In this document: positions 6,945 through 32,006 of the stretch, one piece after another | Position numbering within the stretch: the stretch's first letter is position 1 | Layout of the letters: each line of letters opens with the position of its first letter | From: Rhodospirillaceae bacterium | Lineage (GTDB): Bacteria; Pseudomonadota; Alphaproteobacteria; Rhodospirillales; JABHCV01 | Length of the DNA stretch: 36,424 nt | Assembly (NCBI GenBank): GCA_014382375.1 | Contig: JACNJU010000106.1 | Span: 1-36,424, forward strand | Direction: 5' to 3' | Position numbers and translations under genes: made by a program | Notes under the pieces: generated by a model | What the model was told of the DNA's origin: nothing | Databases searched by the model: none | Seen by the model: the letters and a program-made list of their open reading frames with translations, nothing else

Positions 6945-7171
6945 TTAATTTACCTGCTAAGGCCCTGTTTTGCATGTAAAGCTTGCTCATCGGCATGCAT
7001 CTGAAAAGCGCTAATAAAATGAACAATTTAGCGAATTGATCCGGACAAACTACACGCTCAAACTCTCCCCCTGATTTAAGGATGTGGGCTTCTCTTTGAT
7101 TAAAGGGTCCACGAATTTATGAGGCGTTTCTTAAAGCATGCAAGTGCGCCTTGAAAGGGAGGGTAAAGCTG

Positions 7172-8302: not shown

Positions 8303-8312
8303 GAGCAGAACG

Positions 8313-10083: not shown

Positions 10084-10096
10084 GGAGGAACATACC

Positions 10097-15978: not shown

Positions 15979-18138
15979 ATGAGAAAGCTGTTCAACCGCT
16001 TAGCAAGACCGGGAGTGGCCGTTATCGCCATCCTGGCCGTTGTTCTGTTCGCCTCTCAGGCGTTGGCTCAGGAAGGCAATGTTTACCGGCAATTCCTGGG
16101 CCTCGATTCCAGGCGTCTGGTCTGGTTCCTGGCCCAGATGCATCTCTATTTCGGCGCTTTCGTCCTCGGCGTACCGATGTTCGCCTTGGTCATCGAGATC
16201 GTCGGCTGGCGTTCCAAAGACGAAAAATACGACAAGCTGGCCTATGAGTTCACCAGCCTGCTCAGTGTCGCTTACGCAACAACGGCGGCGCTCGGGGGTT
16301 TGATGGCGTTCGCCCTGGTCACACTGTATCCGACCTTCTGGGGTTTCATGGCCGGTGTCTTCAAGGACATCATGTTCATGTACGCCCTGATGTTCTTCTT
16401 CGAAACGTTCTTCCTGTATCTCTACTACTACGGCTGGAAAGCCATGAAGGGGGGCCGTGAGTTTGGCCGTCCCCTTCAGTTGATTCTGAAAACTCTCGGG
16501 GTCGCTGCCATTGTCTTCACCGTTGCTTTCGCCTTCGGCACCTTCGACCCTGAAGGCGGTATGCGCACCGACACCCGCGTCTTCTTCATTGTTTTGTATT
16601 TTATTCCGATCACCGCCTGTCTGTTTATGGTCAAAAATCTGAAGACCACACATATTGCCATTGGCATCTTGTTGAATGTCGCAGGCACCCTGATTATGCA
16701 ACTCGCCAATAGTATGGCCGGCTATATGATGAGCCCGGTCGGCGTCAACGAGGCGCTCGAGATCACCGGCACCACTTGGCAGGCTTTTGAGAACATCCTG
16801 GCGACCCCGATCGCCATTCACCGCATGCTCGGTAATCTGGCCTTCGGCGGGTTGGTCGCCGGGTCCTACGCGGCGGTAAAGTTCATTGGCGCGAAAACCA
16901 TCGAGGATAAAGCCCATTACGACTGGATGGGCTACGTCGCCAACGTGGTTGCAGTTGCCGCCCTGATCCCGCTGCCGTTCGCCGGTTATTACCTTGGCCG
17001 CGAGATCTATTCGACCAGTGCCGTCATGGGCAACAATATGATGGGTGGTGATTTCTCGTGGACCTTCATCATCCAGGCGATGCTGGTCGGCTCGCTGTTT
17101 CTGATTTCCAATTATTACCTGTGGAGCGGCATGACCCGCATTCCCGGGGCCGAGCGCTATTACAAATTTATCAAGTTCATTCTGTTCGCGCTGATCTTGT
17201 CGTTCGCGATCTGGCTAACACCGCACAACCTGCCGCTGTCCTCATTGGAAGTCGGTGAAATGGGCGGTAGTCAGTATCACCCGATGCTCAAGTTCCTGGG
17301 CTTGATGCCAGCTAAGAACGCGGTGGTCAACCTGATCATCCTGGCGACCTTCTTCAGCTTCCTGCTTTACAGGCGGGGCAACAAGCTCGTTCCGGTATCA
17401 ATCCGGGAGCAGGGCAAGACCGCCAAAATGGTCATCATCGGCTCTGGCGTGGTGGCCATTCTACTGGTCGGCCAGTATGCACTGACCATGATGACCATGA
17501 ACCCGGCCGATCTCGACCTGCCAGCCGACCGCGCCTACTACATGCGTATTATGGGCTACTTGTTGATCTTTGAATGTGTCATGGCGGTGGTTACTGTCGT
17601 GCTGGCGTTGAATGATCGCGGCAAGCTGGGCCAGGGTCTCTATATGGGGGTCACCGCCTTTAACGTCGCCATATTCCTTGGTGTCTGGGGCTTTGTTGTG
17701 ATGGAGAAAGCCTCCCCGGTGCTGCGTAATGTCGCCGTTGCGCAATTCCTGCAACTGATCAGTTGCCTGGTCCTGGTCACCGCCATCGACCTGTTCCTGT
17801 GGAAAGGCGCGAAAGAAGTCGGCACCCTGAAATGGGGCAAGATGACGTCGCGCAGTCAGTATGCGCTGTTGCTGTTGACCATTGTCATCACCATGAACAT
17901 GGGCCTGATGGGCTTCATCCGTTCCGGTCTGCGTGGCGACTGGCATATCTTCGGCATCATGCGCGATACCTCGGACTGGGGGGCGACGCCGACCAACTTC
18001 GTCATGACCCAGCAAGTCGGCGGCGCGGTTCTGCTTTTCCTGGTCGCCTGCGCTTTCATGTTCTGGCTCGGCAGCTTGCTCACCAAGGCCAACAACGAAG
18101 AGTCCTCTTCTGCTGACAACGGGAGGTCCGCAGAATGA
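15979..18138 (+). CDS. Cytochrome bd-like membrane protein, copy A
   Basis: The product of about 719 residues begins with a signal-like segment (to about ALAQ) and then has some 14 hydrophobic helices. I prefer ATG 15979, 10 bases after AGGGGA; GTG 15973 is too close to that site. His55 in AQMHLYFGAF lies in the first core helix, where CydA proteins carry a high-spin heme ligand. Further His residues shared with copy B are in IHRMLGN, AHYDWMGY, TPHNL, YHPML and WHIFG. Compared with copy B (607 residues) it has two extra stretches, near residues 150-210 and around 500-600. Overall it resembles the bd-like putative terminal oxidases first noted in Nitrospira rather than true CydA, and no CydB partner is present. 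It probably reduces O2 or exchanges electrons between quinone and cytochrome c. Confidence 0.7.
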   Translation: MRKLFNRLARPGVAVIAILAVVLFASQALAQEGNVYRQFLGLDSRRLVWFLAQMHLYFGAFVLGVPMFALVIEIVGWRSKDEKYDKLAYEFTSLLSVAYATTAALGGLMAFALVTLYPTFWGFMAGVFKDIMFMYALMFFFETFFLYLYYYGWKAMKGGREFGRPLQLILKTLGVAAIVFTVAFAFGTFDPEGGMRTDTRVFFIVLYFIPITACLFMVKNLKTTHIAIGILLNVAGTLIMQLANSMAGYMMSPVGVNEALEITGTTWQAFENILATPIAIHRMLGNLAFGGLVAGSYAAVKFIGAKTIEDKAHYDWMGYVANVVAVAALIPLPFAGYYLGREIYSTSAVMGNNMMGGDFSWTFIIQAMLVGSLFLISNYYLWSGMTRIPGAERYYKFIKFILFALILSFAIWLTPHNLPLSSLEVGEMGGSQYHPMLKFLGLMPAKNAVVNLIILATFFSFLLYRRGNKLVPVSIREQGKTAKMVIIGSGVVAILLVGQYALTMMTMNPADLDLPADRAYYMRIMGYLLIFECVMAVVTVVLALNDRGKLGQGLYMGVTAFNVAIFLGVWGFVVMEKASPVLRNVAVAQFLQLISCLVLVTAIDLFLWKGAKEVGTLKWGKMTSRSQYALLLLTIVITMNMGLMGFIRSGLRGDWHIFGIMRDTSDWGATPTNFVMTQQVGGAVLLFLVACAFMFWLGSLLTKANNEESSSADNGRSAE

Positions 18139-19121
18139 AAAGCTCGATATGGAAAATATTCGGATTTTTGGTCCTGACCGTCGTCCTCTATAACTGGATC
18201 GGCTACGCCATCACCGATCTATCGGGCGGCAAAAAAGATATGTCGGGCGCCGTTGAAATCAGTCCGGAAGGTGGTGAAACCCTGTATTGGGGCAAGGGAC
18301 GATGCTACACCTGCCACAGCCTCGGCGGGCAGGGCAGCGCCGTTCGCGGTCCCAATCATGGTCAGTTTGGCGAGAAATTCCCCATGCCCATGGGGTCGCG
18401 CGCCACTGAGCGGGCCATAGAACGTACCGAGAAGACCGGCACACCCTTCACCGCCGTCGATTACATCGTCGAAAGCATGGCCGAGCCCGGCGCCTATGTG
18501 GTTAACGGCTACAAGAACGAAATGGCCGTCGTCTATGCACCGCCGATTTCTCTCAACCTGAACGAAATCAAGGCCATCGTCGCCTACCTGATGGTCCAGG
18601 GCGGCGATTTGGATATGGAGGCCATCGATACCGCTCCGTCAGAAATCTCTACCAAACTTTATTCTAAAATCCAGGCGGCGCAGGCTGCCGGCGGCGGCGA
18701 CCCCGGCGCCGGTGAGACCGTCTTCGAGGACAACTGCGAGGAATGCCATTCCCTGGAAGGCGAAATGATCGTTGGCCCCGATCTTTCGACCATCGGCGAT
18801 AAGGGCATCAAGTTTATCTCTGAAAGCATTCTCAACCCGGCCAAGTCGATCACCCCCGGCTTCGAGACCTACGAGGTCGAAACCAAGGATGGCACCAAGA
18901 TCGTCGGACTGAAAACCCGCGATGAGGGTGGCGAGGTCGACATTACCAAGAAGAACGGCGATGTCGTCACCGTCGTGCAGTCCGATATCAAGACAATCAG
19001 CGTCGATGCCAACGCCTCGGTCATGCCCGAGGATCTGAACGAGGCGATGACGGTCAAGGACTTCCAGGATCTGCAAGCCTACATGATTATGCAGAAGGCC
19101 GAAAAGAAGGACGGGGAATGA
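18135..19121 (+). CDS. Membrane-anchored diheme cytochrome c, module A
   Basis: The gene overlaps the bd-like gene by ATGA and has GGAGG 8 bases upstream. The 328-residue product has one N-terminal anchor (about 8-27) and two heme c domains: CYTCH (57-61) and CEECH (201-205). The second domain, with ILNPAKSITPGFETYEV and the later VMPEDLNEAMTVKDFQDLQAY, resembles the heme-binding domain common in large planctomycete cytochromes, with a beta insert between heme site and distal methionine. The paralogue in module B is at 25103-25915; that one is shorter and lacks the beta insert. It likely docks on the bd-like subunit on the periplasmic face. Confidence 0.8.
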   Translation: MKSSIWKIFGFLVLTVVLYNWIGYAITDLSGGKKDMSGAVEISPEGGETLYWGKGRCYTCHSLGGQGSAVRGPNHGQFGEKFPMPMGSRATERAIERTEKTGTPFTAVDYIVESMAEPGAYVVNGYKNEMAVVYAPPISLNLNEIKAIVAYLMVQGGDLDMEAIDTAPSEISTKLYSKIQAAQAAGGGDPGAGETVFEDNCEECHSLEGEMIVGPDLSTIGDKGIKFISESILNPAKSITPGFETYEVETKDGTKIVGLKTRDEGGEVDITKKNGDVVTVVQSDIKTISVDANASVMPEDLNEAMTVKDFQDLQAYMIMQKAEKKDGE

Positions 19122-19125
19122 TACG

Positions 19126-20088
19126 ATGATGTCTAGACTCAACAAATTCTGGACGACTGTCCTTACGATTATCGTCATTTACCTGCTCATCAAGTTCGGC
19201 ATTCCAGCGGTTGCCAGGCAGGTTACCGGCTTGCCGTTCCCCCTGCCGGTACCTGGGGCGCTTATCTTCATCTATATGGTGTTGGTCCTGGTCGCCATGT
19301 TCCTGCTCGTCACTTTCGACGATGGCCCCTTAAACGAGTTCTTGCGCCCGATTAAGCGTTTCCTGCGCGGAGATTTTACAAAGCCGGTGCGGACCATCGG
19401 CATCGTTCTCATCTCCTTGGCCGTTGGTTGGTATGTCTACGACAACGTGGTGCCGAAAATAACCGCCCCGCTGGCCCTTCGTATCCAGCACCCGTCTTCA
19501 AACTTTCCGAAAAAGATGGAAGACGCGCAAAACCCCATGACCAACCCGACCGAGGCGCAGGTCGCGACCTTCATCGAGCAGGCCAAGGCAGGCGAAGTCC
19601 AGTTCATCGAGCAGGTAATGCCCGACATTGAGGCGTGGATGGATGAAACCGGCGAGGAAGATCCATTGCTCGCTATTAACACCCCCGCGATCAAGAAATT
19701 CCGTGCCGCCGTTGAGGCAGGCAACGTCGATAACGAAACGGCGCGGGCCGCCCTGCTTGAAGTGCGCCTGTACATGGGCCGCGCCCTTTACGCCATGAAT
19801 TGCAGGGCTTGTCACGGCGATAGCGTCGCCGGTGATGGACCTATGGCTGACGGTTTCAAGCTGCGGCCGATCAACTTTACCGATAACGGCACCATCGAAA
19901 CCATTGTCGAAGGTTACACCTTCTGGCGTGTCGAAAATGGCGGTCCCGGGTTGCCCCTTGAAGCGACGCCGTGGGATTCGGCGATGCCCGAGTGGAAAGT
20001 CAGCCTCAGCGAAGAAGAGCGTTGGTTGATCATCATGGCCGAGTACGACCTGGCCGAAAAAACGCCGCGTATGCCGGAAAAACATTGA
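19126..20088 (+). CDS. Polytopic membrane protein with C-terminal monoheme cytochrome c, module A
   Basis: The 320-residue product has three hydrophobic helices (about 9-27, 44-64 and 90-106), the last followed by a long periplasmic part. The single heme site is CRACH (226-230), followed by GDGPMADGFKLRP and the distal Met region AMPEWKVSLSEEERW. The module B paralogue at 25928-26695 has the same architecture. ATG 19126 and 19129 are both possible; a GGGGA site is 8-11 bases upstream. It is spaced 4 bases from the previous gene. It is likely a structural and electron-transfer subunit of the bd-like complex. Confidence 0.8.
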   Translation: MMSRLNKFWTTVLTIIVIYLLIKFGIPAVARQVTGLPFPLPVPGALIFIYMVLVLVAMFLLVTFDDGPLNEFLRPIKRFLRGDFTKPVRTIGIVLISLAVGWYVYDNVVPKITAPLALRIQHPSSNFPKKMEDAQNPMTNPTEAQVATFIEQAKAGEVQFIEQVMPDIEAWMDETGEEDPLLAINTPAIKKFRAAVEAGNVDNETARAALLEVRLYMGRALYAMNCRACHGDSVAGDGPMADGFKLRPINFTDNGTIETIVEGYTFWRVENGGPGLPLEATPWDSAMPEWKVSLSEEERWLIIMAEYDLAEKTPRMPEKH

Positions 20089-20106
20089 GCCGTGGGAACC
20101 GATAAC

Positions 20107-21768
20107 ATGAACAGAAAAGAAAACATGACATTCGGAATACTCGGTGCAGGCCTGATGCTTATGGCCTTGCTGATTCCGACCGCGAGCGACGCCAAGACGG
20201 TGCCCAGTGGACCGATGCCCGAAGCGACAGAGGCTTACATCGAGCAGGGTCGCCAGATCTATATCCGGCGCTGTAGTTTCTGTCACGGATTGCTCGGCGA
20301 CGGCGGAGGCCCGGCGGCGGATTATCTGGACCCCCGCCCGCGTGATTTTACTCTCGGCACCTATAAGTTCCGGACCACAGCGTCCGGCGAACTGCCGACC
20401 GATAATGATCTTTTCAGGACCGTCAGTCGCGGCCTGCCGAGTACCGCCATGCAGGCTTTCGACAACGACGTGATCAAGAACGGTTTGTCCGAAGAAGAAC
20501 GCTGGCAGGTCATTTCCTACATCAAGACCTTTGCCATCGAGTTCGATGACCCTGACCTTGATCCTCTTAAAACCGGTAAGACGGTATCGCTTCCGGCCAG
20601 TCTGCCGCCCTTCAGCGCCGAACTGGTGGCCAAAGGCAAGGAAGTATTCGAGAAAGCCAAGTGCTGGAGCTGCCACGGCAAAAACGGTCGCGGCGACGGT
20701 AACAAGGAATTCCGCAAGGATGACTGGGGCTTCCCGATCCGCATTCGCAACGTCACCCATCCGTGGAAGATCAAGGGCGGCAGCGAGGTCGAGGAAATCT
20801 TCATGCGCTTTACCACGGGCATCAACGGTACGCCGATGCCGTCGTTCGTCAAATCCCTGCCCGAGGAAGATCGCTGGGCCCTGGCCAACTACATCAAATC
20901 CCTGCAGCATGATTTGACCAAGCATCAAGTGCTGAAAGTCCTCAGCGTGGAAGGCGACGTGCCTGCTGATCCTGCGGACGCGGCCTGGGCGAATGCCCAG
21001 ACCATGGACATTCGGCTGGCAGGCCAGGTCATCGCCCCGCCGCGCTGGCAGAACCCGAGCATCGAGATGGCCACCGTTCAAGGCATCGCCAATGACAAGG
21101 ACATCGCCTTCAAGCTGACCTGGGACGACCCGTTTAAGGACATCAAGCACGACGCGGCCAAGGAATTCAATGCGGCGGAAATCCAGAAGGTTGGCCTGTA
21201 TAGCTCTTACGTGGCGGCCAACGATATGATCCCACGGGCGCTCGATACCTTCCGTGATTCAATCGCCTTGCAATTCCCGGTCAAGACGCCTTCGGGCACG
21301 CAAAAGCCCCACTTCTTCCGCGGAGAGTCGTCCAATCAGGTCAACTTGTGGGTCTGGAACGCCGACCTTGCTGAGGGCGGCGGGGAAGGGGCGGTTGAGG
21401 CCAATGCGCGCGGTTGGCGCCAGCAGCCAAAGCCGCAGAAGGAAGCTCAGCGTCAGCTTGTTTCGAAAGCCAATTGGGATCAGGGACAGTGGACCCTGGT
21501 TATCAAACGTCCGCTGCTGACAAGTGACAAAAACGATGTTCAGTTCGAGGCTGGCAAGTTTATTCCTGTTTCCTTAAATGCCTGGGACGGCTCGAACGGT
21601 GAACACGGCCTGATCATGAGCCTGTCGACATGGAACTACGTGCTTATCGAAGCGGCCATGCCGATCAGCGTTTACATTTTTACGGCGCTTGGTTTCCTGA
21701 TCACCGGCGGCTTGTTGTTCTGGATGGCGAGAAAATCCGAAGCGGCCCCCGAATCCGAATCGATATAA
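20107..21768 (+). CDS. Diheme cytochrome c fused to EB_dh/NxrC-type heme b domain, membrane-anchored, module A
   Basis: I start at ATG 20107 (553 residues), 9 bases after GGGAA; a GTG at 20092 is less likely. A signal peptide is followed by two cytochrome c domains with CSFCH (56-60) and CWSCH (186-190). Residues about 285-515 match the ethylbenzene-dehydrogenase-type heme-binding domain: FKLTWDDPF, DSIALQFPVK, KPHFFRGESSNQVNLWVWNA and GQWTLVIKRPL. That domain is found in the gamma subunits of type II DMSO-reductase enzymes and in nitrite oxidoreductase (NxrC), where it binds heme b. A C-terminal helix (about 520-540) anchors it. The module B paralogue is at 26692-28233. It gives a possible chain heme b, heme c, heme c within one chain. 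Confidence 0.8.
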   Translation: MNRKENMTFGILGAGLMLMALLIPTASDAKTVPSGPMPEATEAYIEQGRQIYIRRCSFCHGLLGDGGGPAADYLDPRPRDFTLGTYKFRTTASGELPTDNDLFRTVSRGLPSTAMQAFDNDVIKNGLSEEERWQVISYIKTFAIEFDDPDLDPLKTGKTVSLPASLPPFSAELVAKGKEVFEKAKCWSCHGKNGRGDGNKEFRKDDWGFPIRIRNVTHPWKIKGGSEVEEIFMRFTTGINGTPMPSFVKSLPEEDRWALANYIKSLQHDLTKHQVLKVLSVEGDVPADPADAAWANAQTMDIRLAGQVIAPPRWQNPSIEMATVQGIANDKDIAFKLTWDDPFKDIKHDAAKEFNAAEIQKVGLYSSYVAANDMIPRALDTFRDSIALQFPVKTPSGTQKPHFFRGESSNQVNLWVWNADLAEGGGEGAVEANARGWRQQPKPQKEAQRQLVSKANWDQGQWTLVIKRPLLTSDKNDVQFEAGKFIPVSLNAWDGSNGEHGLIMSLSTWNYVLIEAAMPISVYIFTALGFLITGGLLFWMARKSEAAPESESI

Positions 21769-21781
21769 GGAGAAACGAAAT

Positions 21782-22444
21782 ATGAAAACGTTTATGTCAC
21801 TGATCACGGGGCTGGCCCTGACAGGCTTCATGGCAGGGAACGCCCTGGCCGATGCCGCCGCCGGGAAAGCGGCGTTTGAGGCAAACAAGTGCGCCGAGTG
21901 TCATTACACGCAAGGCCCGGCCCAGGAAAAAACCATTGACGATGTTTGGGCCAAGAAGGGGCCGGAACTGTGGTACGCCGGTTCCAAGTTCAACGCCGAC
22001 TGGCTGGGGGCGTGGCTGGCCGATCCCAAGCCGATCAGGCTTCTGGCCTTTAATTCCCTGTCCGACCCCAACCCCGGCGACCATCCGAAACTGGCCGCGG
22101 GCGACGCCGTATCGGTCAAGGATTTCCTGATGAGCCTGACCGCAGCAGAGGTCGAGGCCGGTTCTGTCAAGGCGAAGAAAAACCCCAAGGGGAAATTGAT
22201 TTTCACCAAGAAAATGCCGTGCTCTGGCTGCCATCAATATCCCGACAAGAGTGGCAACAGGGGTGGCAAGAGTGGTCCGTCGCTGGTCGAAGCGGGACTG
22301 CGGTTGAATCCGGACTGGATACTCGCCTACTTGCAGCATCCGGCCGTCTTCAAGCCGGTCAAGGACATGCCCAATTTCGTCGGCATCTTAAGCGACAAAG
22401 ACATGATCAACGTGTCGCGTCACATCGCCAGTTTCAAGCCTTAG
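21782..22444 (+). CDS. Periplasmic diheme cytochrome c
   Basis: AAGGAGA lies 8 bases before ATG 21782. The 220-residue product has a signal peptide (cleavage near ALADA) and two heme sites, CAECH (37-41) and CSGCH (147-151), in two similar halves, each with a WxxxWL or WILAYLQHP helix and a following proline-rich loop. KDMPNFVGILSDKDMINVSRHI supplies a probable distal methionine. This gene has no counterpart in module B. As a soluble two-heme carrier it could link the bd-like complex to the Rieske/molybdoenzyme pair. Confidence 0.8.
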   Translation: MKTFMSLITGLALTGFMAGNALADAAAGKAAFEANKCAECHYTQGPAQEKTIDDVWAKKGPELWYAGSKFNADWLGAWLADPKPIRLLAFNSLSDPNPGDHPKLAAGDAVSVKDFLMSLTAAEVEAGSVKAKKNPKGKLIFTKKMPCSGCHQYPDKSGNRGGKSGPSLVEAGLRLNPDWILAYLQHPAVFKPVKDMPNFVGILSDKDMINVSRHIASFKP

Positions 22445-22457
22445 GAGTAATGACAAG

Positions 22458-22835
22458 ATGAACAGGACAATGAAAAGCATCATCTTCGCAACGACGCTTG
22501 TCATCGCCGTAATGGCTGGCGCGGTGCCATCTGTCGCCGAAGATGTCGAGAAGGTCTTCAAGTTTTACTGCGCGCAATGCCACGGTGAGAGCGGCGACGG
22601 CAAAGGCATCAACGTGACCGAGGATTTTCCGGTTACGCCCAGGGCCTTTAACAACGCCGCAGAAATGAACAAGCTGACCGACGCCGACCTGCGCAACGTC
22701 ATCCATGAAGGCGGGCCGATTGCCAGCAAATCCGAAATGATGCCGCCTTGGGGCAAGACGCTGAGTGACGAGGATATCGATAACCTGGTCATCAAATTAC
22801 GCGCCCTGTGTCAATGCAAGGGCAAGCAGGGCTAA
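22458..22835 (+). CDS. Small periplasmic monoheme cytochrome c
   Basis: AGGAG precedes ATG 22458 by 8-10 bases. The 125-residue product has a signal peptide ending near SVAED, one heme site CAQCH (38-42) with GESGDGKG after it, and a likely distal Met in EMMPPWGKTLSDEDI. This is a compact class I type (cytochrome c-552/c6-like). It is the last gene before a 430-base stretch that holds only tiny open frames. It is a probable soluble electron carrier. Confidence 0.85.
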   Translation: MNRTMKSIIFATTLVIAVMAGAVPSVAEDVEKVFKFYCAQCHGESGDGKGINVTEDFPVTPRAFNNAAEMNKLTDADLRNVIHEGGPIASKSEMMPPWGKTLSDEDIDNLVIKLRALCQCKGKQG

Positions 22836-22851
22836 AGGATCAGAAGAGGGG

Positions 22852-22956
22852 TCAGAAGACGTAGAAATATAAAATCAGAACGATAACGACGGCGTTGATT
22901 GCCATCCCGAAGAAGATAAAGCCGTTGGCGAATTTGGTTTTTTTATCGGTGCTCAT
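22852..22956 (-). CDS. Possible 34-residue single-helix membrane protein, antisense
   Basis: The minus strand has an ATG at 22956 and TGA at 22852. The peptide has a charged N-terminus (MSTDKKTKF), then one long hydrophobic helix ending in FYVF. That is a plausible small membrane protein. There is no Shine-Dalgarno site in front of the ATG, and it is opposite to all its neighbours, so it may be chance. It ends 16 bases beyond the stop of the plus-strand cytochrome gene. Confidence 0.3.
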   Translation of the reverse strand: MSTDKKTKFANGFIFFGMAINAVVIVLILYFYVF

Positions 22957-23033
22957 AGTTACCGAATCTACGGACGAAAGACGTCCCGGTCAACAACAAG
23001 AAACAGGCAGTGCGGAAAAGTACGGGGAAGATC

Positions 23034-23132
23034 ATGAACGCGGAAACTGAAAACAAATACCCCTGGGCGGGACCTGCGCTTTTCATCGTCGTCGCCTGCG
23101 GCTGCCTGGCATTTTTTATCTGGCTTCTTTAA
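23034..23132 (+). CDS. 32-residue single-helix membrane protein
   Basis: GGGGAAG lies 3-9 bases before ATG 23034. The peptide MNAETENKYPWAGP is followed by a hydrophobic helix ending in FFIWLL and a stop. Its size and topology are like those of CydX/CcoQ-type small subunits that stabilise terminal oxidases. It sits directly ahead of the second bd-like gene, with another tiny gene between them. It is too short for family assignment. I think it is real because the ribosome site, the helix and the position agree. Confidence 0.6.
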   Translation: MNAETENKYPWAGPALFIVVACGCLAFFIWLL

Positions 23133-23147
23133 TCAGCGAGGGAACAC

Positions 23148-23264
23148 GTGAGCAATTCATACCTGGCATTCGCCGCCGCCGCCGCCTTCTTCGGCGTCCT
23201 GTTCTTCGCCCTTGATTACGCGCTGATGAGCGCCCAGGGGCTGACTCTGTTCTTCCACGGCTAA
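23148..23264 (+). CDS. 38-residue membrane peptide
   Basis: GAGGGA stands 5-6 bases before GTG 23148. The peptide begins MSNSYLAFAAAAAFFG and forms one hydrophobic helix with a short polar tail (YALMSAQGLTLFFHG). It ends 10 bases before the start of the second bd-like gene. With the 32-residue gene before it, it forms a pair of small membrane peptides leading into module B. They are possible accessory subunits of the bd-like complex. Confidence 0.6.
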   Translation: MSNSYLAFAAAAAFFGVLFFALDYALMSAQGLTLFFHG

Positions 23265-23274
23265 GGATATGTCA

Positions 23275-25098
23275 ATGAGGCCAAGACTTTTAAGTAGAAT
23301 GAGTGGAGCGCTGCTGGTGCTTTTTCTTGGCCTGTTCTTCGTCCCGATGGAATTGCCGGGGCTCGATTCCGGCACGGCATTTGCCGCCGAAGCGGTCGCC
23401 GCCGATGCGGTTGTCGAAGTCTCTCCCTATCAACCTGCACCGAATTTAGTCGAAAAAGATTATCCGACATTCCTTGGCTTCAACGGACGGATTTTTGTCT
23501 GGATCGCCGCCCAATTACATCTGTGGTTCGCCGCCTTCGTCCTCGCCGTGCCGATTTTTGTCTTCATCATCGAAGCCATCGGCATGAAGACCCGGGACAA
23601 ACGCTACGACAACATGGCTTACGAATTTATCAAGGTCAGCCTGACGGCCTATTCCCTGACAGCCATCGTCGGCGGCTTGATGACCTTGGGCTTGCTGGTC
23701 TTCTATCCGCATGTCATGGCCTATATGACGTCGATCTTCAAGGAGACGATGATCTTCTATGCGCTGCTGTTCTTCGCCGAAAGTGCCTGCCTGTACATTT
23801 ATTATTACGGCTGGCACTGGCTGCAGGGGCCGTTCAGGAAATGGGTCCACCTGACCATCGGCTTGCTGCTCAACGCCGTCGGCACGGTTCTGATGTTGCT
23901 GGCCAATTCCTGGCTGACCTTCATGATGAGCCCGGCCGGGGTTGACAGCGCCGGAGTCTTCAATGGCCAAGTTTGGGACGCCATGCATAACTTCCTGTGG
24001 AACCCGATCAACCTGCACCGCTTCGTCGCCAATATCGCTTACGGCGGCTCCATCATCGGCGCTTACGCGGCCTACAAATTCCTCAGCGCCCGCACACCCC
24101 AGGAAAAGGCCCATTACGACTGGATGGGCTACAACGCCAACTTCGTCGCCATCGCAGGCCTGCTGCCGCTGCCGTTCGCCGGATACTATCTGGTCGCCGA
24201 AATTTACGCCTACAGTCAGCAGATGGGCATCACTCTGATGGGTGGGATTTTCGCCTGGCTGTTCATTATTCAGGCGGTGCTGATCGGCACCCTGTTCCTG
24301 TCGGCCAATTATTACCTGTGGTGTGGCCTGGGGCGCAGTGAAGGTGGGATTCGCTATTACAAGTACATGAAATATCTGGGCTTCGCCCTCGTCGCCGCCT
24401 TCCTGGTCTGGTTCACGCCGCACACGCTGGTGCTGTCCAACGAAGAACTCAAAGCCCTTGGCGGGCCTTACCATAAGTACCTGGGTCCGCTTGGCATCAT
24501 GCCGGCGAAGAACACTGCCGTGAACATCATGATTCTGATGACCTACTTAAGTTTTCTCTACTACCGGCGGGCCAACAAGATCGCCACGGTCAATTGGGTC
24601 AAGGCCGGCAACACCGCGCAGATTGCCCTGTTTACGATGGCCATCGCCAACATCTTCTTCCTTGGCATCTATCACGGCTACTTCACCAACACCGTTTACA
24701 AGGTAGCGGCGTCAATTCCGCAGGTGTTGACGACGCTTACGGTGATTGTGATGTCAACGGTGATCGACTCGATGATCTACAAGAACTCCACGGAGGTCGC
24801 GCCCCAGCGCTGGGGGCGTGTGCCGCCGCGCTCGCAATACGCCTTGTTCCTGCTGGCAGTTTCTTTCACCTGGCTGATGGGACTGATGGGCTACATCCGG
24901 TCAGGCATTCGCCAGCACTGGCACGTGGTTGACGTCTTCCGCGACAACTCGCCCGATGCCTTCACTCCTTCGCTGGGTTACGCGACCAACGTTATCTCGG
25001 TGGCGACGATCATGTTCATGGCGATGGTTATCTTCGTCTTCTGGCTGGCGCAAATCAGCGGGCAGAAGACGGATGCCGCCGGGTTCTGGAAGGAATAG
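23275..25098 (+). CDS. Cytochrome bd-like membrane protein, copy B
   Basis: I prefer ATG 23275 (607 residues), 8 bases after AAGG; ATG 23269 lies too close to it. A signal-like segment ends near TAFAAEA, and about 12 hydrophobic helices follow. The first core helix carries His82 in AAQLHLWFAAF. Conserved with copy A are LHRFVAN, KAHYDWMGYNANFVA, TPHTL, PYHKYL, GIMPAKN and HWHVVDVFRDNS. The order of helices is the same as in copy A, without its two inserts, and there is no CydB-like gene. It starts the second copy of the four-gene module. It is likely the quinone- or O2-reactive membrane core of a complex with the three cytochromes that follow. Confidence 0.7.
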   Translation: MRPRLLSRMSGALLVLFLGLFFVPMELPGLDSGTAFAAEAVAADAVVEVSPYQPAPNLVEKDYPTFLGFNGRIFVWIAAQLHLWFAAFVLAVPIFVFIIEAIGMKTRDKRYDNMAYEFIKVSLTAYSLTAIVGGLMTLGLLVFYPHVMAYMTSIFKETMIFYALLFFAESACLYIYYYGWHWLQGPFRKWVHLTIGLLLNAVGTVLMLLANSWLTFMMSPAGVDSAGVFNGQVWDAMHNFLWNPINLHRFVANIAYGGSIIGAYAAYKFLSARTPQEKAHYDWMGYNANFVAIAGLLPLPFAGYYLVAEIYAYSQQMGITLMGGIFAWLFIIQAVLIGTLFLSANYYLWCGLGRSEGGIRYYKYMKYLGFALVAAFLVWFTPHTLVLSNEELKALGGPYHKYLGPLGIMPAKNTAVNIMILMTYLSFLYYRRANKIATVNWVKAGNTAQIALFTMAIANIFFLGIYHGYFTNTVYKVAASIPQVLTTLTVIVMSTVIDSMIYKNSTEVAPQRWGRVPPRSQYALFLLAVSFTWLMGLMGYIRSGIRQHWHVVDVFRDNSPDAFTPSLGYATNVISVATIMFMAMVIFVFWLAQISGQKTDAAGFWKE

Positions 25099-25102
25099 CG
25101 TC

Positions 25103-25915
25103 GTGAAACAATTCCTTGCCGTCATCGGATTTTCACTCCTGACCATCGCCGGGTTCGCAGGCTTCTCCAACTACGGTATCCCGCGCATCGAACCGGCGCC
25201 GCCGCCGGTGCAGGAAAAGATCGATCTTTCCGCCATGACCATGGATCAGTTTATCTCCCTCGGCGAAAGGGTTCTCAATGGCAAGGGGACGTGCAAGCTG
25301 TGCCACAACGAACTCGGTCGCGCTCCGCTGCTAGAGCAGATCATCCCGAACACCGAAAAACGCCTGGCCGACGCCAAATACAAGGGCGAGGCCCACGACC
25401 TGGAAGGCTACATCCTTGAATCCATGGTCAATCCTTCAGCTTATGTGGTCGCCGGTTTCGGCAAGTCCGGCTCCAACGACACGGTCAGCCCGATGCCCGA
25501 TGTGTCCGGCGGATCCATCGGCCTGACGGAACCCGAGCTTTTGGCCGTCATTGCTTACCTGCAGGATTCCGGCGGCGCCGAAGTCACTGTCGAAATTCCG
25601 ACCGATGCCGGTGATGCGGCAGCCGAAGAAGTGACAGCCGAAGAGCGCGAACCGTTGGAAGACCCGCTTGAAATCGCCGCCGAATTCGGCTGCGGAGCCT
25701 GTCACATTATTGGCGAGGATGAAGGCGATATAGGTCCCGATCTGACAAAAATCGGCGCCACCCGTGACCGTGATTATCTGCGCCGGGCGATCCTTTACCC
25801 CAATGCCGAAATCGCCGAGGGTTTCGAAGCGGATATCATGCCCGATGACCTGGGCGATACCATGTTCGCCGTCGAGGTCGAGCGTCTGGCCGAATACCTG
25901 GCAAGTCTGAAATAG
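25103..25915 (+). CDS. Membrane-anchored diheme cytochrome c, module B
   Basis: GTG 25103 has AAGGA 8 bases upstream and starts 4 bases after the bd-like stop; the longer open frame overlaps the previous gene. The 270-residue product has an N-terminal hydrophobic anchor (about 4-22) and heme sites CKLCH (64-68) and CGACH (197-201). An acidic Glu/Ala-rich linker (about 165-190) separates the domains. The distal Met is probably in DIMPDDLGDTMFAVEVE. It corresponds to the module A gene at 18135 by position, length of the first domain and the YILESMVNPSAYVVAGFG block, but lacks the beta insert of the second domain there. Confidence 0.8.
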   Translation: MKQFLAVIGFSLLTIAGFAGFSNYGIPRIEPAPPPVQEKIDLSAMTMDQFISLGERVLNGKGTCKLCHNELGRAPLLEQIIPNTEKRLADAKYKGEAHDLEGYILESMVNPSAYVVAGFGKSGSNDTVSPMPDVSGGSIGLTEPELLAVIAYLQDSGGAEVTVEIPTDAGDAAAEEVTAEEREPLEDPLEIAAEFGCGACHIIGEDEGDIGPDLTKIGATRDRDYLRRAILYPNAEIAEGFEADIMPDDLGDTMFAVEVERLAEYLASLK

Positions 25916-25927
25916 GAGGAGAATGCG

Positions 25928-26695
25928 GTGAAAATACCCCGACTGCTGCAAGCCATTCTCGTCCTCGCGGGCGTTTACGGCGGTTTCGTTCTGGTCTTCG
26001 ATGTCATCCTGGAGCAGGTGATCCCGTCGAGTTTGCTCAATATGTACATGTTCTTCGTCGTTGCCGGCACCTACATGGTGTTCACCTTCAACGAGGAAAG
26101 CACCGAGGAAATCGTCGCCCCGATCAAGGCATTGGTCGAAGACCCGTCGAAGAAAATGATGCGCAACGTCGTTTTCCTGGTGGTGCCGCTGTTCTTTGGT
26201 TGGTTCACCTTTCAACAGATGAAGCCCAGCTTCGAAGCGCCTTTGGAGCTGAGGACCATTCACCCGGCGCCGCCCTCGGCGGTCAAGGTTTATGGCAAAC
26301 GCTATAATCTTCTGACCCTGGAAAATCCGTTTCGCAAGTTTGAAAAGGAAGATCCGGAAAAATTCGCCGAACTGGTAAGGCAAGGCGGCGCTGTTTACAT
26401 CAAGAATTGTCAGTACTGTCATGGCGACAAGCTCGACGGCAAGGGCCCGTATGCGCAAGGGTTGAACCCGGTGCCACTGAACTTCCAGGACATCGGCACC
26501 ATCGCCCAGCTTCAGGAAGCCTACTTGTTCTGGCGCATTACCACCGGCGGCCCCGGCCTGCCCAAGGAAGCGACGCCGTGGCTTTCGGCGATGCCCGTCT
26601 GGGAGAATTTCCTCAGCGAAGACGAAGTCTGGAAGGTCATTTTGTTCCTTTACGACTACACCGGCTATTCGCCCCGGTCCTGGGAGCACGAATGA
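25928..26695 (+). CDS. Polytopic membrane protein with C-terminal monoheme cytochrome c, module B
   Basis: AGGAGG lies about 7 bases before GTG 25928. The 255-residue product has hydrophobic helices at about 7-27, 36-54 and 80-96, then a periplasmic part with CQYCH (161-165), GDKLDGKGPYAQGLNPVP and a distal-Met region AMPVWENFLSEDEVW. It is clearly related to the module A gene at 19126: both share an LRxxHP block, INF/LNFxD, a Y-x-F-W-R motif, GGPGLPxEATPW and SAMPxW. It lacks the helical insert that precedes the heme in module A. Confidence 0.8.
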   Translation: MKIPRLLQAILVLAGVYGGFVLVFDVILEQVIPSSLLNMYMFFVVAGTYMVFTFNEESTEEIVAPIKALVEDPSKKMMRNVVFLVVPLFFGWFTFQQMKPSFEAPLELRTIHPAPPSAVKVYGKRYNLLTLENPFRKFEKEDPEKFAELVRQGGAVYIKNCQYCHGDKLDGKGPYAQGLNPVPLNFQDIGTIAQLQEAYLFWRITTGGPGLPKEATPWLSAMPVWENFLSEDEVWKVILFLYDYTGYSPRSWEHE

Positions 26696-28233
26696 TGACT
26701 TTTAAATTTATCCATGGATTGGTCTTCCTGGCTTTAATGGCAGGCGTCTTCGCCAGCGGCCCGTCGGTGGCGGCGCCCGGCGACGTCGAAAACGGCGAAA
26801 AAATCTACATGAAGCGGTGTGTCTGGTGTCACGGTGAAGAAGGGGAGGGCGACGGCCCCGCAGGCGATCTGCTGGTACCGCCACCACGCGATTTCACTTC
26901 CGGCCTGTATAAAATCAAGACCTCGCCGTTTGACGAAGACTTCCCCAACGACGACGATATCTTCCGGATGATTTCCGACGGCATGCCGGGAACCGATATG
27001 CCGGCCTGGAAGGACATCCTGAAAAATGAACAGGACCGCTGGGACCTGGTGGCCTACCTCAAGGCTTTCGCCGAGCTGGAAGAAGAACCCGGTACGATGG
27101 TCGATTACGGGGCCCCAGTGGCGACGTCTGTGGAAAGTATCGCCAAGGGCCAGAAATTATTCCATGACGGCGAGCGCTGTTCGGAATGCCACGGTCAGGA
27201 CGGCAAGGGCGACGGCATCAAGAAACTGAAGGGCGACAACGGCGAGCGCACCTGGCCACGCAATCTGACCAAACCGTGGACCTTCCGCGCCTCTAACGAC
27301 ACCAAGGATATCTTCACCCGTATCTCGACGGGCATCCCCGGCACCCAGATGCCGTCTTTCGCCAACCCGAAAAGCAAGACAATGCTATCGGTTGAGGAAC
27401 GTTGGCATGTCGCCAACTACGTCAATTCCCTGGCCAAGACCGACAAGACGGTGCGAGCGGTCAATACGGTGGTCAAGGCCAACCGCATCGAAGGCGATGT
27501 CCCATCCGATCCGGACGATCCCGCGTGGGACACGGCCGAGCTGACAACCTTCATGATGGTGCCGCAGATATTCGAGAAGGAACGGGTGTTCACCTATACC
27601 AACGACACCATCACGGTCAGCGCTTTCTATAACGACAAGGAAATCGCCATGTTACTGGAATGGGACGACCGCACCAGGAGCATCCCCGGCGATCCGAACA
27701 TCGATAAAATTGCCGACAAGGTGCCGTACGAAGACAGGGTCTCCGTGCAGCTGCCGGTGACCATCCCCGAAGGCACGCAGAAGCCATACTTCATCAACGG
27801 TGATACCGAAAACCCGGTCAATCTGTTGTCATGGCGCAGTGGCACTGCGACAAGCCCGGAGTCGGTCAGTGTGGCCAACGCCACCGGTTCGGAAAACATC
27901 GAGGAACGCGACGCCGCAAACTTCGGCTTGATGGCCAAAAGCGCCTACAAGGATGGAACATGGCGGGTGGTTATGAAACGGCCGTTAAGCACCGAAAATG
28001 CGCAAGGCGATTTGCAACTCGTCGAAGGCCGCTTCATCCCCATCGCCTTTGCCAACTGGGACGGTTCCAACAGCGAAAGCGGAACCAAACATTCGCGCAC
28101 GACATGGTACTGGCTGCTGCTGAAGCCCGCCAATAGCGCTAAGCCGTACATTCTGGCTTTGATCGTCGCCGGCATCATCTTTGGCGGCCTGCTGTGGTGG
28201 GCGAAAGCCGCGAGAAGGAACGGGGAGGTCTAA
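26692..28233 (+). CDS. Diheme cytochrome c fused to EB_dh/NxrC-type heme b domain, module B
   Basis: The gene overlaps its predecessor in ATGATGA; GGGAG lies 6 bases upstream. The long open frame that begins at 26407 is a shadow of the previous gene up to this point. The 513-residue product has a signal peptide, heme sites CVWCH (43-47) and CSECH (163-167), an ethylbenzene-dehydrogenase-type heme b domain (about 255-470, including IAMLLEWDDRTRS, RVSVQLPVTIPEGTQKPYF and NPVNLLSWRSG) and a C-terminal anchor helix (about 485-503). It has the same layout as the module A protein at 20107. The pair supports duplication of the whole four-gene block. Confidence 0.8.
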   Translation: MMTFKFIHGLVFLALMAGVFASGPSVAAPGDVENGEKIYMKRCVWCHGEEGEGDGPAGDLLVPPPRDFTSGLYKIKTSPFDEDFPNDDDIFRMISDGMPGTDMPAWKDILKNEQDRWDLVAYLKAFAELEEEPGTMVDYGAPVATSVESIAKGQKLFHDGERCSECHGQDGKGDGIKKLKGDNGERTWPRNLTKPWTFRASNDTKDIFTRISTGIPGTQMPSFANPKSKTMLSVEERWHVANYVNSLAKTDKTVRAVNTVVKANRIEGDVPSDPDDPAWDTAELTTFMMVPQIFEKERVFTYTNDTITVSAFYNDKEIAMLLEWDDRTRSIPGDPNIDKIADKVPYEDRVSVQLPVTIPEGTQKPYFINGDTENPVNLLSWRSGTATSPESVSVANATGSENIEERDAANFGLMAKSAYKDGTWRVVMKRPLSTENAQGDLQLVEGRFIPIAFANWDGSNSESGTKHSRTTWYWLLLKPANSAKPYILALIVAGIIFGGLLWWAKAARRNGEV

Positions 28234-29000: not shown

Positions 29001-30680
29001 ATGACGCCACAAAACCAGACTCAGAAGATTGCCGCCGAGGACAGCGAAGCCATGGCCGGAGCTGCCAAACTGGGCCGTGTGCTGGTCGCCCTCGACGCTT
29101 CTGAATATTCCGACCGGGCGTTGGAAGAATCTGTGCGGCTGGCGAAGACGGCGGATGGCGAGATCACCGGGATTCACGCCTATGCGGCGCTGCTGCATGA
29201 TCGTCGTTTCAAGCAGATGGAGGGCGGCCTTCCCGAACGCTATCTTGAAGAAGAAGAAATGATGTATCAGCGCGATGTTCATGACAGCCTGATCACCAAA
29301 GGCCTGAACATTATTTCCGACAGCTATCATGATGTCGGTGAAGAAGTTTGCAAAAAGGCGGGGTTGCCTTTTCACCGCCTGAGCCCCGAAGGCAAAAACT
29401 ATGCTCGTGTCATCGAAGCGGCTGGGAGCGGCAATTATGATGTCTTGGCGTTGGGCGCACTGGGGCTTGGAGCGGTGCCGGGTAGTCTGATCGGCACCGT
29501 CTGCGAGCGCGTCGTGCGGCGCAGCCCGATCGATACATTGGTGATTAAGGATTCCGGGCGGGCCATCGGCGATGGCCCGATTGTTGTCGGTATCGACGGT
29601 TCGGAATTGTCCAACGGCGCCCTGAAAACGGCGCTCGATATCGGTCGCCGCCTCGGCGTCCCGGTCCATGCCGTCGCCGCCTACGACCCTTATTACCATT
29701 ATGTCGCCTTCAACATGATCGCCGGTGTGCTCAGCGATGAAGCGGGCAAGGTCTTTCGCTTCAAGGAACAGGAACAGTTGCACGAAGAACTGATCGATGA
29801 CGGCATCGCCAAGATCTATCAGTCGCATCTGGAAATCGCCCAGCGCACGGCCGTCGAGGAGGGCATGGAACTGACCACCAAGTTGCTCGACGGCAAGGCG
29901 TTCAAGGTGATCGCCGATTATTTGAGCGAGGTCGGCGCCAGCCTGCTTGTCATCGGCAAGACCGGGGTGCATGCGGACGCCGGATTGGATATAGGCGGCA
30001 ATGCCGAAAACCTTTTGCGGACGACCCCGTGCCATATCTGGTTCGGCCAGACCACCTTCACGCCGCCCATGGATATGGTCGCCGAAGAAACCATTTCCTG
30101 GAGTCATGAGGCCGAGGCCGTTCTGGCCAAGGCACCGGAATTCGCCCAGGGAATGGCCAGAAAAGCGGTTATTCGTCATGCTCAAGAGCACGGCCATACC
30201 TTCATCACCAAGGACATCGTCAATGTCGTCGCCCAACAACTGATGCCGAGAGGCTGCCCGGCCCACCGGGCCAAGGAAACCGGTGAAGCGGCGCTGAAAT
30301 GGGACCCCCAGGCAATGGCGCTGGTCGACGATCTTGGCGACAACGACATCGCCGCCGGCGTCATGCTGCGGGCGGAAAAGAAAGCCCGCCGCGAGGGCGC
30401 CGACGAAATCGGCGTCGCCCATGTGCAGCCGTTCCTCGACAAAGAGACGGCAAAGGACGGCGGCTTCACCTGGGCCACGGCGGCGCTGGCCCGTATTTCA
30501 CGGGTCCCCGATGCGATGCGGATAAAGACCAAGGCCCGCATCGTTGAAGTTGCCAGGGCGCGAAATGTCACGGAAATTACCCTTGAAATCGTCGAGGCCG
30601 GGTTGGAAGAAGCTCTCGAAGCGATGCACGAGGCGATGTTCGAGGGTGGACATACCAAAACCCTTGATGAGGAGGACTAA
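29001..30680 (+). CDS. Tandem universal stress protein with two C-terminal PCP_red domains
   Basis: AAAAGGA lies 8-9 bases before ATG 29001. The 559-residue protein has two UspA-type domains (about 25-175 and 190-350), recognised by VLVALDASEYSDRALEES and IVVGIDGSELSNGALKTA, with matching late blocks LGALGLGAVPGSLIG and VIGKTGVHAD. Two copies of the short PCP_red helix-turn module follow. One starts at Trp367 (WSHEAEAVLAKAPEF, then ITKDIV); the other starts at Trp491 (WATAALARISRVPDA, then ITLEIV). PCP_red occurs in light-independent protochlorophyllide reductase subunits and in the radical SAM protein encoded next. Combining Usp with PCP_red points to a tetrapyrrole-related regulatory or carrier role, which is inferred. 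Confidence 0.75.
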   Translation: MTPQNQTQKIAAEDSEAMAGAAKLGRVLVALDASEYSDRALEESVRLAKTADGEITGIHAYAALLHDRRFKQMEGGLPERYLEEEEMMYQRDVHDSLITKGLNIISDSYHDVGEEVCKKAGLPFHRLSPEGKNYARVIEAAGSGNYDVLALGALGLGAVPGSLIGTVCERVVRRSPIDTLVIKDSGRAIGDGPIVVGIDGSELSNGALKTALDIGRRLGVPVHAVAAYDPYYHYVAFNMIAGVLSDEAGKVFRFKEQEQLHEELIDDGIAKIYQSHLEIAQRTAVEEGMELTTKLLDGKAFKVIADYLSEVGASLLVIGKTGVHADAGLDIGGNAENLLRTTPCHIWFGQTTFTPPMDMVAEETISWSHEAEAVLAKAPEFAQGMARKAVIRHAQEHGHTFITKDIVNVVAQQLMPRGCPAHRAKETGEAALKWDPQAMALVDDLGDNDIAAGVMLRAEKKARREGADEIGVAHVQPFLDKETAKDGGFTWATAALARISRVPDAMRIKTKARIVEVARARNVTEITLEIVEAGLEEALEAMHEAMFEGGHTKTLDEED

Positions 30681-30683
30681 TCC

Positions 30684-32006
30684 TTGTCGGCCTTCCCAGC
30701 CACCACTCTCGAGGCTCCTTTCCTTGTTGCCCTTAATCTAACGCAACGCTGTAATCTGCAATGTGCGCATTGCTATCTCGATGCGGGAACCCGCCGTGAC
30801 GGCGATGAGGTCGAATTGAGCACGGCGGAAGTCAAATCCGTGATTGACGACATCGCTTCTTTAAGTGATGAAACCATGGTTGTGCTGACCGGTGGCGAAC
30901 CGATGATGCGGCGCGATCTGGCAGAACTGGCGAGCCATGCCAATAACCGTGGTCTGATGGTTGTCGTCGGCTCCAACGGCACGTTGCTCAACGACGCGCG
31001 GGCGAAAACCCTTAAAGAAGCCGGTGTCCAGGGCGTCGGCATCAGTATCGATTCACTGAACCCCGCCTATCATGACGACTTTCGCGGCAAACCCGGCGCC
31101 TGGGAAAAAGCCATGGCGGGTATCGACGCTTGTCGCAACAACAAGCTGCGTTTCCAGATTCATTTTTCGGTGACCGATGACAACGCCCACGAGCTCGACG
31201 ATATGATTGCCTTCGCTCGGGAATCCGGCGCCTTTGTGTTTAATGTGTTCTTCCTGGTGTGTACCGGGCGCGGCGAGAAAGTCACCAATATTTCCCTTGA
31301 GACCTACGAGAAGGTGCTGGCGCGCGTCACACAGGCTGCGCGCGACGAAAGCGGCCTGATCGTGCGCGCCAAGTGTGCGCCGCATTTCAAGCGCATGGCC
31401 CTGGAACTCGATCAATCATGGCCGGTGACCACGGCGCACGGTTACGAGGCCGGTGGCTGTCTGGCCGGCACACGCTATGCCAGGGTCACCCCCATGGGCG
31501 ATGTAACCCCGTGTCCGTACATGGAAAATTCGGTCGGCAACGTGCGCAATACATCGTTTTCGGATCTTTGGCGCGATGCCCCGGTGTTCAAGCAACTGCG
31601 CGCACCGGTTTTGGAAGGCCGCTGCGGGGCTTGCGAATACACCAAGCTGTGCGGCGGTTGCCGAGCCCGTCCCCTGGCCCGTGACGGCAACATGATGGGC
31701 GAGGACTTCCTGTGCGGTTATGAGCCCCAGGGCGGCGCCGTTATCGAACCGTTGGGCGCGCAGGAAAGCACCATGGCATGGACGCCGGGCGCGGAAGAAT
31801 GGTTAGGGCGGATTCCCTCCTTCGTGCGGCGTTTCGTGCGGGTGCGGGCGGAAAACTTCGTCCGCGAGCAAGGCGGAGATGAAGTCACCGCAGAGGTCAT
31901 GGGCGCCCTGGCCCGGAAAAAATTCAAAGGCCGCGGCAAGCCGTCATCGCTGTCCCCGGGCGGGCCTGCGGCGTCATTGCTGAAGCGCTTGGGGGTCAAG
32001 CGATGA
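30684..32006 (+). CDS. Radical SAM/SPASM protein with C-terminal PCP_red domain (heme-biosynthesis type)
   Basis: GAGGAGG lies 9 bases before TTG 30684, 3 bases after the preceding stop. The 440-residue protein has the radical SAM [4Fe-4S] motif Cys23-x3-Cys27-x2-Cys30 (CNLQCAHC), the GGEP block LTGGEPMMRRD, a SPASM domain with a cluster of cysteines (CPYMEN, CGACEYTKLCGGCRA, LCGYEP) and a PCP_red module from Trp366 (WTPGAEEWLGRIPSF). The closest functional relatives are AhbD (heme b from Fe-coproporphyrin) and NirJ (heme d1 side-chain removal). Followed by a protoporphyrinogen-oxidase-like gene, it probably modifies a tetrapyrrole or a small peptide for the cytochrome complexes. The exact substrate cannot be assigned. 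Confidence 0.8.
   Translation: MSAFPATTLEAPFLVALNLTQRCNLQCAHCYLDAGTRRDGDEVELSTAEVKSVIDDIASLSDETMVVLTGGEPMMRRDLAELASHANNRGLMVVVGSNGTLLNDARAKTLKEAGVQGVGISIDSLNPAYHDDFRGKPGAWEKAMAGIDACRNNKLRFQIHFSVTDDNAHELDDMIAFARESGAFVFNVFFLVCTGRGEKVTNISLETYEKVLARVTQAARDESGLIVRAKCAPHFKRMALELDQSWPVTTAHGYEAGGCLAGTRYARVTPMGDVTPCPYMENSVGNVRNTSFSDLWRDAPVFKQLRAPVLEGRCGACEYTKLCGGCRARPLARDGNMMGEDFLCGYEPQGGAVIEPLGAQESTMAWTPGAEEWLGRIPSFVRRFVRVRAENFVREQGGDEVTAEVMGALARKKFKGRGKPSSLSPGGPAASLLKRLGVKR

Follow-up and report, generated by a model that had tools for sequence, protein, structure and literature searches.

A doubled bd-like and cytochrome c gene module behind iodate-reductase-like genes in a Rhodospirillaceae bacterium

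Which enzyme is served by an array of respiratory genes in which one four-gene unit occurs twice? The question is raised by contig JACNJU010000106.1 of a Rhodospirillaceae bacterium (assembly GCA_014382375.1; genome G000 below), whose 36,424 nucleotides were analysed as a whole and are called the window. Here a bd-like protein is followed in order by a diheme cytochrome c, a monoheme c with three helices and a second diheme c, which has an EB_dh domain and a helix at its C-terminus; this set is found twice on the + strand. The modules stand directly behind iodate reductase (Idr)-like genes, which suggests that they feed an Idr-like enzyme with membrane electrons. On balance we consider it probable that the molybdenum (Mo) enzyme and two old modules make up an Idr-type island, in which quinol oxidation would be coupled to the reduction of iodate or a similar oxyanion. 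In nitrite oxidisers, iodate reducers and nitrous oxide (N2O) reducers alike, it is unsettled by what route electrons move between quinone and periplasmic Mo or copper (Cu) enzymes without the cytochrome bc1 complex.

Two copies of a four-gene module

The original prediction had described two tandem duplicated copies of the four-gene set. Open reading frames, CxxCH motifs and Pfam matches bear out both sets at their places, with two linker cytochrome genes between them:

15979..18138, + strand: module 1 bd-like protein (bd1); PF01654 at 45.6 bits (cut-off 26.2); 721 amino acids from an in-frame GTG at 15973
18135..19121, + strand: module 1 membrane-anchored diheme c (dic1); two CxxCH, one hydrophobic segment; TIGR02603 at 98.9 bits
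19126..20088, + strand: module 1 three-helix monoheme c (mono1); one CxxCH, three hydrophobic segments
20092..21768, + strand: module 1 diheme c with EB_dh and C-terminal helix, alt_NxrC-like (altC1); PF09459 at 68.3 bits (cut-off 33.3); two CxxCH, C-terminal hydrophobic segment
21782..22835, + strand: linker c cytochromes, a diheme c at 21782-22444 (two CxxCH) and a monoheme c at 22458-22835 (one CxxCH)
23269..25098, + strand: module 2 bd-like protein (bd2); 609 amino acids; PF01654 at 62.7 bits (cut-off 26.2)
25097..25915, + strand: module 2 membrane-anchored diheme c (dic2); CxxCH motifs, hydrophobic segment
25928..26695, + strand: module 2 three-helix monoheme c (mono2); CxxCH motif, hydrophobic segments
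26692..28233, + strand: module 2 diheme c with EB_dh and C-terminal helix (altC2); PF09459 at 88.5 bits (cut-off 33.3); PDB 6h5l_B at 153 bits and EbdC 2ivf_C at 47.7 bits

The five c hemes proposed for each copy correspond to five CxxCH motifs counted in each, and motif numbers mostly agree across the loci scanned (two in 24 of 24 altC1, one in 23 of 24 mono1 and two in 21 of 25 dic1). A PF01654 profile search of G000 returned two matches, both in this array.

Identity between the copies is 40% over 469 amino acids for the bd-like proteins (E 8e-113), 26% for the diheme c (E 2e-14), 31% for the monoheme c (E 7e-46) and 37% for the EB_dh protein (E 1e-104), while at the DNA level only two short patches of significant similarity were detected. 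When genome contigs were scanned, both bd1 and bd2 were present in 23 of the 80 loci kept. All ten genes follow the window order in 20 of these 23 (in one case with a SCO1 match in between), so this order is not due to chance; the exceptions are L044, with all ten genes and two of them swapped, and L014 and L036, which are incomplete at their ends. The block xdic-xmono-bd2-dic2-mono2-altC2 also stands on its own in several genomes, and a linker diheme c and monoheme c likewise precede bd2 in L030, L032, L037 and L046. Thus the module recurs as a block, and in the loci seen its genes are not scattered singly.

A tree of bd-like proteins (50 rows, including 13 of the 25 bd1 rows collected; IQ-TREE, rooted at midpoint) recovered bd1 as a single clade with support of 100/100 and grouped the remaining modules at 99/99. 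The bd2 proteins of double modules fall together with those of single blocks, L030, L032 and L037 among them (100/100), and the two Nitrospira bd-like proteins are each other's sisters (100/100). A recent tandem duplication is ruled out, since bd1 is a clade of its own and the bd2 of double modules sits with that of single blocks. 'Tandem duplicated' therefore holds for the arrangement and fails for the history, bd1 and bd2 being separate old lineages, in keeping with the long-ago divergence that had been proposed. Judged by these sequence comparisons, the array is best taken for two neighbouring modules that are old paralogues, and the bd1/bd2 split as predating the Nitrospira pair; because that pair are sisters, the duplication in Nitrospira is a separate event.

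An Idr-like operon upstream of the array

A likely partner, missed in the original prediction, lies about 3 kb upstream on the same strand, as an operon in Idr gene order:

7151..9452, + strand: two MauG/CcpA-like diheme peroxidases (idrP-like), the second from 8313; two CxxCH each; MauG/MbnH-type NCBIfam matches all below cut-off
9466..10083, + strand: Rieske subunit, IdrB/AioB-like; TIGR02694 at 117.7 bits (cut-off 95.65); NRREFL (Tat-type) stretch
10088..12766, + strand: molybdoenzyme, IdrA/AioA-like, of the Idr-like clade by tree and active-site column; TIGR02693 at 421.6 bits (cut-off 359.05)
12884..15106, + strand: HEAT-repeat protein, lying between the molybdoenzyme gene and module 1; PF13646 at 181.7 bits
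15140..15922, + strand: secreted cupredoxin-like protein; H...C..H..M pattern seen by eye

Iodate reducers are described as having a gene set with two peroxidases, a Rieske subunit and a molybdoenzyme (PMC8692401, PMC10989891). The two diheme peroxidases, IdrB and IdrA likewise form one operon in the window, as they stand together in the idrABP1P2 of Pseudomonas SCT and Denitromonas IR-12. Read by eye, the IdrB-like protein has a Tat-type signal and the IdrA-like protein none.

In a molybdoenzyme tree of 46 rows (40 Idr-like plus six AioA), the window protein falls within the Idr-like clade, which is split at 100/100 from the AioA rows, to which it is 28-31% identical. The AioA-type glutamate, which we take to act at the substrate site, is E in 6 of 6 AioA rows and in 0 of 40 Idr-like rows. 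That the molybdoenzyme is an arsenite oxidase whose electrons the modules accept would agree with the matches to TIGR02693 and TIGR02694, both over cut-off. This identification (AioBA) was nevertheless rejected on the clade split and the missing glutamate, and the AioA stretches L163 and L164 had no peroxidase genes matched; we give it next to no weight.

Co-occurrence and linkage of Idr and module

Idr-like genes were present in 22 of 23 double-module genomes tested, G000 included and clade membership confirmed by tree, compared with 4 of 397 in a sample of other genomes from the phylum, in which a relative of about 50% identity or more was sought by a different method (Fisher p = 1.3e-31). 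Among genomes reached by bd-like searches, Idr was found in 28 of 31 with bd1 among the matches listed, against 3 of 31 outside the Idr-linked single-module clade with no bd1 among the matches listed, where short bd1 fragments could escape (Fisher p = 8.8e-11). This comparison leaves out that clade with its 24 genomes, as well as G445, where a short bd1 piece that was not among the matches listed adjoins Idr, G263, which has the locus of G321, and L014. The three Idr-bearing genomes with no bd1 listed are G326 (44% identity), G022 and G570 (contig ends before the bd1 position). The single-module clade, for which no bd1 was among the matches listed in any of its 24 genomes, is a second module clade linked to Idr, with Idr in 21 of the 24 (absent in G579, G580 and G590).

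The linkage is also physical. Of 23 stretches fetched, 17 have bd1 downstream of idrA on the same strand at a distance of 2.6-3.4 kb (3.2 kb in the window), and HEAT matches occur in 16 of the 17 stretches with this regular spacing; one other stretch is rearranged and five have no bd1 in the stretch, one of these being a second Idr copy. Alpha-, Beta- and Gammaproteobacteria, and also two records with Deltaproteobacteria in their titles, have idrA and bd1 adjacent; a similar adjacency occurs in two more metagenome-assembled genomes (MAGs) of the window-type set, and one Nitrospirota genome has Idr and module on different contigs. That operon and array are neighbours through shared mobility or regulation only, with no joint function, would suit the description of Idr islands as mobile (PMC8692401) and the occurrence of Idr without modules. 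Same-strand linkage at nearly fixed spacing in several classes, together with the second Idr-linked module clade, makes such mere neighbourhood highly unlikely in our view. Module 1, by its bd1, appears to be dedicated to Idr.

Four loci met in these searches are recorded here in their own right. L145 (G311:C19) holds a second, divergent Idr-like operon with no bd1 beside it; the same genome carries the module-linked operon as well. The deltaproteobacterial G324 has two bd1-type genes (C29 and C72; 72% and 69% identity) and also carries bd2, Idr, an NXR/Clr-type match and L-NosZ. On the megaplasmid of Vibrio sp. THAF190c (L130), a P1-P2-B-A operon with an IdrA-like protein 66% identical is without bd-like modules in the 38.7 kb read. 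The array of L052, from a MAG titled Dehalococcoidia, is almost identical to that of Acidiferrobacteraceae L020 and is probably misbinned or a very recent transfer.

Structure and ligand residues of the module proteins

AlphaFold2 models of bd2 (pLDDT 81.1, pTM 0.83) and bd1 (pLDDT 76.9, pTM 0.78) match best the fold of cytochrome bd subunit I, CydA (Z 34.4 over 346 residues for bd2 and 33.2 for bd1). The next-best fold is that of the alternative complex III membrane subunits (ActC/ActF; Z 21.5 for bd2 and 21.8 for bd1), a likeness seen for the bd-like subunit alone and without a sequence relation in PDB sequence searches. By the helix lists of the models, bd1 has four more long helices than bd2.

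We take the CydA heme ligands to be His19, His186, Met393 and Glu445. Glu107 of E. coli CydA is kept, His19 is present in 84 of 85 bd-like rows, and H250 (85 of 85 rows) fits His186 in the 9r2g alignment, partly by eye, whereas MAFFT and hhalign place His186 elsewhere. The fold is like that of CydA, yet Glu99 is replaced by Tyr in all 85 rows, Met393 aligns with L/V/M/A and Glu445 is not kept, the C-terminal mapping being uncertain at this low identity; with Met393 and Glu445 failing, the full heme-ligand set of cytochrome bd is not kept. In addition, the Q-loop of bd-like proteins is described as replaced by helices (Lucker 2013, PMC3578206). From their residues, then, the bd-like proteins appear to be without those of the O2 site and the quinol loop.

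These results bear on whether the bd-like proteins could serve as terminal oxidases, passing electrons from the c cytochromes to O2. The CydA fold of both copies, the kept His19, Glu107 and probably His186, and the naming of bd-like proteins as putative oxidases in other Nitrospira and Manganitrophus clusters would all agree with such a role, which the changes at Glu99, Met393 and Glu445 and the replaced Q-loop argue against. The oxidase reading has a slim prospect.

For the EB_dh protein, two putative ligand columns were compared over 103 rows, Nitrospira rows included: where EbdC and NXR-C share a Met, 94 rows have Gln, and where they share a Lys, 36 rows keep it. Met/Lys ligation of the EB_dh heme b is on record (PMC8387239), and the one b heme that had been assigned to each copy is hence doubtful; it is put no more strongly than that because the residue numbers and spacing given there fit the two columns poorly. 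We infer that the four subunits form one complex that binds quinone and holds b hemes in its bd-like protein.

Comparison with known bd-like clusters

A single module is already known as the bd-like/alternative-NxrC cluster of Nitrospira, Nitrospina and anammox bacteria. In Nitrospira, alt_nxrC_2, two membrane c cytochromes and bd-like_3 are described, 'duplicated a few genes downstream' as bd-like_4 (Mundinger 2019, PMC6606698), and a role like that of alternative complex III has been proposed for a conserved bd-like cluster (Lucker 2013, PMC3578206). The remark that no characterised complex of this composition was known overlooked the single module on record in these papers; in the open-licence library searched, no purified complex of this composition was found, nor any paper joining iodate and bd-like proteins.

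A search across genomes, which the original prediction had advised especially for Nitrospira-like lineages, returned bd-like matches in 39 of 118 Nitrospirota genomes and the same gene order in seven loci. The Nitrospira bd-like_3/alt_nxrC_2 cluster has the same four gene types in the same order and a cupredoxin-like neighbour, and a weak homologue of the window cupredoxin-like protein stands beside Nitrospira modules. Each of the seven Nitrospira-type loci fetched also has a pair of bd-like genes, spaced by about 5.5 kb. In contrast to the window, the two c genes and the EB_dh gene of these loci follow only the second bd-like gene; no CxxCH gene stands behind the first in the three read gene by gene. 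For this reason the doubled four-gene module may be unreported. The window differs further by the four extra helices of bd1 and by having no NXR-type enzyme. The NXR-type molybdoenzyme profile TIGR03479 had no match in G000 and was over cut-off in 0 of 48 genomes, a set with no NXR-bearing positive control; matches above 700 bits were confined to G311, G317, G324 and G326. By this profile, NXR was not seen as a partner in this genome.

bd2 blocks and clade III N2O reductase

Blocks with bd2 adjoin L-NosZ, the clade III lactonase-type N2O reductase (NCBIfam NF052460), in four genomes. L-NosZ is over cut-off beside bd2 in Gallionellales L046 and Mariprofundus L030, and relatives at 83% (L041) and 70% (G037) also stand beside modules. 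The bd2 block, a universal stress protein (Usp) gene, a radical SAM gene and the reductase occur together in L030, L041 and L046, and the block and the reductase in L165/L166 of G037. In none of the four genomes was bd1 among the matches listed, and the block has a copper reductase beside it instead of Idr.

Among 60 genomes searched, 16 carry L-NosZ (8 over cut-off), mostly on a different contig from the module: 2 of the 23 double-module genomes, none of the 8 in the Idr-linked single-module clade, 8 of the 19 single-module genomes that have neither Idr nor bd1 (4 of these over cut-off), and further G324, G326, G444, G445, G448 and G462. Clustering of 325 leftover open reading frames in the flanks gave lineage-specific clusters and, on follow-up, L-NosZ. 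For several deltaproteobacterial single modules no partner was found. Module 2, with bd2, is best explained as a more general unit, which also stands alone beside N2O reductase.

Proposed function

In the proposed scheme, electrons would move between the quinone pool and the CydA-fold protein of each module, and would reach IdrAB through the periplasm by way of the anchored c cytochromes, with five c hemes in each module, and the cupredoxin. The favoured direction would run from quinol through the module and the periplasmic carriers to IdrAB, and the net reaction would likely be oxidation of quinol with reduction of iodate or a similar oxyanion; both iodate as substrate and the direction of flow are what we infer. 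The Denitromonas IR-12 cluster 'lacked a quinone oxidoreductase' (PMC8692401), whereas the window has two quinone-type modules behind its Idr-like genes.

The opposite direction would resemble what has been suggested for the homologous module of Nitrospira and Nitrospina (PMC6606698, PMC3578206): the Idr-like enzyme would oxidise its substrate, and the modules would pass high-potential electrons to c oxidase and, reversed, to quinone for CO2 fixation. Room for such reverse flow is given by RuBisCO, which was found in G000 and, within the Idr-linked single-module clade, in 7 of the 8 genomes tested. RuBisCO, the only CO2-fixation route covered, is however found in only 9 of 23 double-module genomes, and autotrophy was not seen to be their common denominator; the two-peroxidase gene set is that of iodate reducers (PMC8692401, PMC10989891), and the bd2 blocks adjoin L-NosZ, a reductase by annotation. 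On these three counts the reductive role is favoured, and the NXR-like use is considered unlikely.

Several observations weigh against quinol-driven oxyanion reduction through the modules. Besides the RuBisCO distribution just given, a module of this kind accompanies nitrite oxidation in Nitrospira. The canonical quinol-site residues seem absent from the bd-like proteins, so quinone binding is assumed. The molybdoenzyme tree held no proven IdrA, and the window protein is 49-50% identical to the Azonexus/Thiothrix-type rows, with a differing pocket motif. Linkage is incomplete: bd1 occurs without Idr in G301, G448 and G502, and since the Idr-like operons of L130, L131, L132, L159, L160 and L161 have no module in the stretch read, and Idr-bearing G014, G235 and G380 no bd-like match among those listed, Idr does not need the module. 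Such genomes, together with a bc1-type cytochrome b in G000, make other quinol routes possible. Finally, nearly all genomes compared are MAGs.

Three things are new in the searches made: a doubled module whose bd1 forms a lineage of its own, the close association of this module with Idr-like enzymes, and the neighbourhood of bd2 and L-NosZ. A wider view is put forward tentatively, as one we hold to fall somewhat short of probable: the bd-like/alt_NxrC unit would be an exchangeable quinone-pool adaptor for NXR, Idr and clade III NosZ, with bd1 as a new Idr-dedicated quinone oxidoreductase that travels as an island of about 20 kb and supplies the link absent from the Denitromonas idr cluster. 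If one adaptor family does serve all three, its mechanism can be studied in the host that is easiest to grow. The IdrA subclade of the window type may reduce an oxyanion other than iodate. Several Idr-linked islands come from MAGs with titles pointing to marine low-oxygen waters (ETNP, Arabian), and the island may for that reason bear on marine iodine cycling.

Neighbouring genes and minor observations

Two further groups of genes flank the operon and the array:

3033..6826, + strand: sensor kinase and sigma-54 response regulator; Pfam HisKA/HATPase_c/PAS and Response_reg/Sigma54_activat
29001..33409, + strand: accessory genes, namely Usp with PCP_red, radical SAM with PCP_red and a protoporphyrinogen oxidase-like protein; matched near many modules

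A kinase and a sigma-54 regulator occupy the equivalent place on a plasmid of Azonexus hydrophilus. The radical SAM protein resembles NirJ2/AhbD, though at 327.8 bits it stays below the cut-off of 500. Genes of this accessory group recur with modules linked to Idr and with modules linked to L-NosZ, and may point to a special heme.

No Rfam family match was found in the window. A second cupredoxin-like protein, secreted and 35% identical to that at 15140-15922, is encoded at 2197-3009 on the minus strand, divergent from the kinase gene. Near the start of the contig, positions 866-1102 consist of degenerate short tandem repeats built on GTTGGCAG; the repetitive open reading frames there are created by these repeats and are therefore unlikely to be genes.

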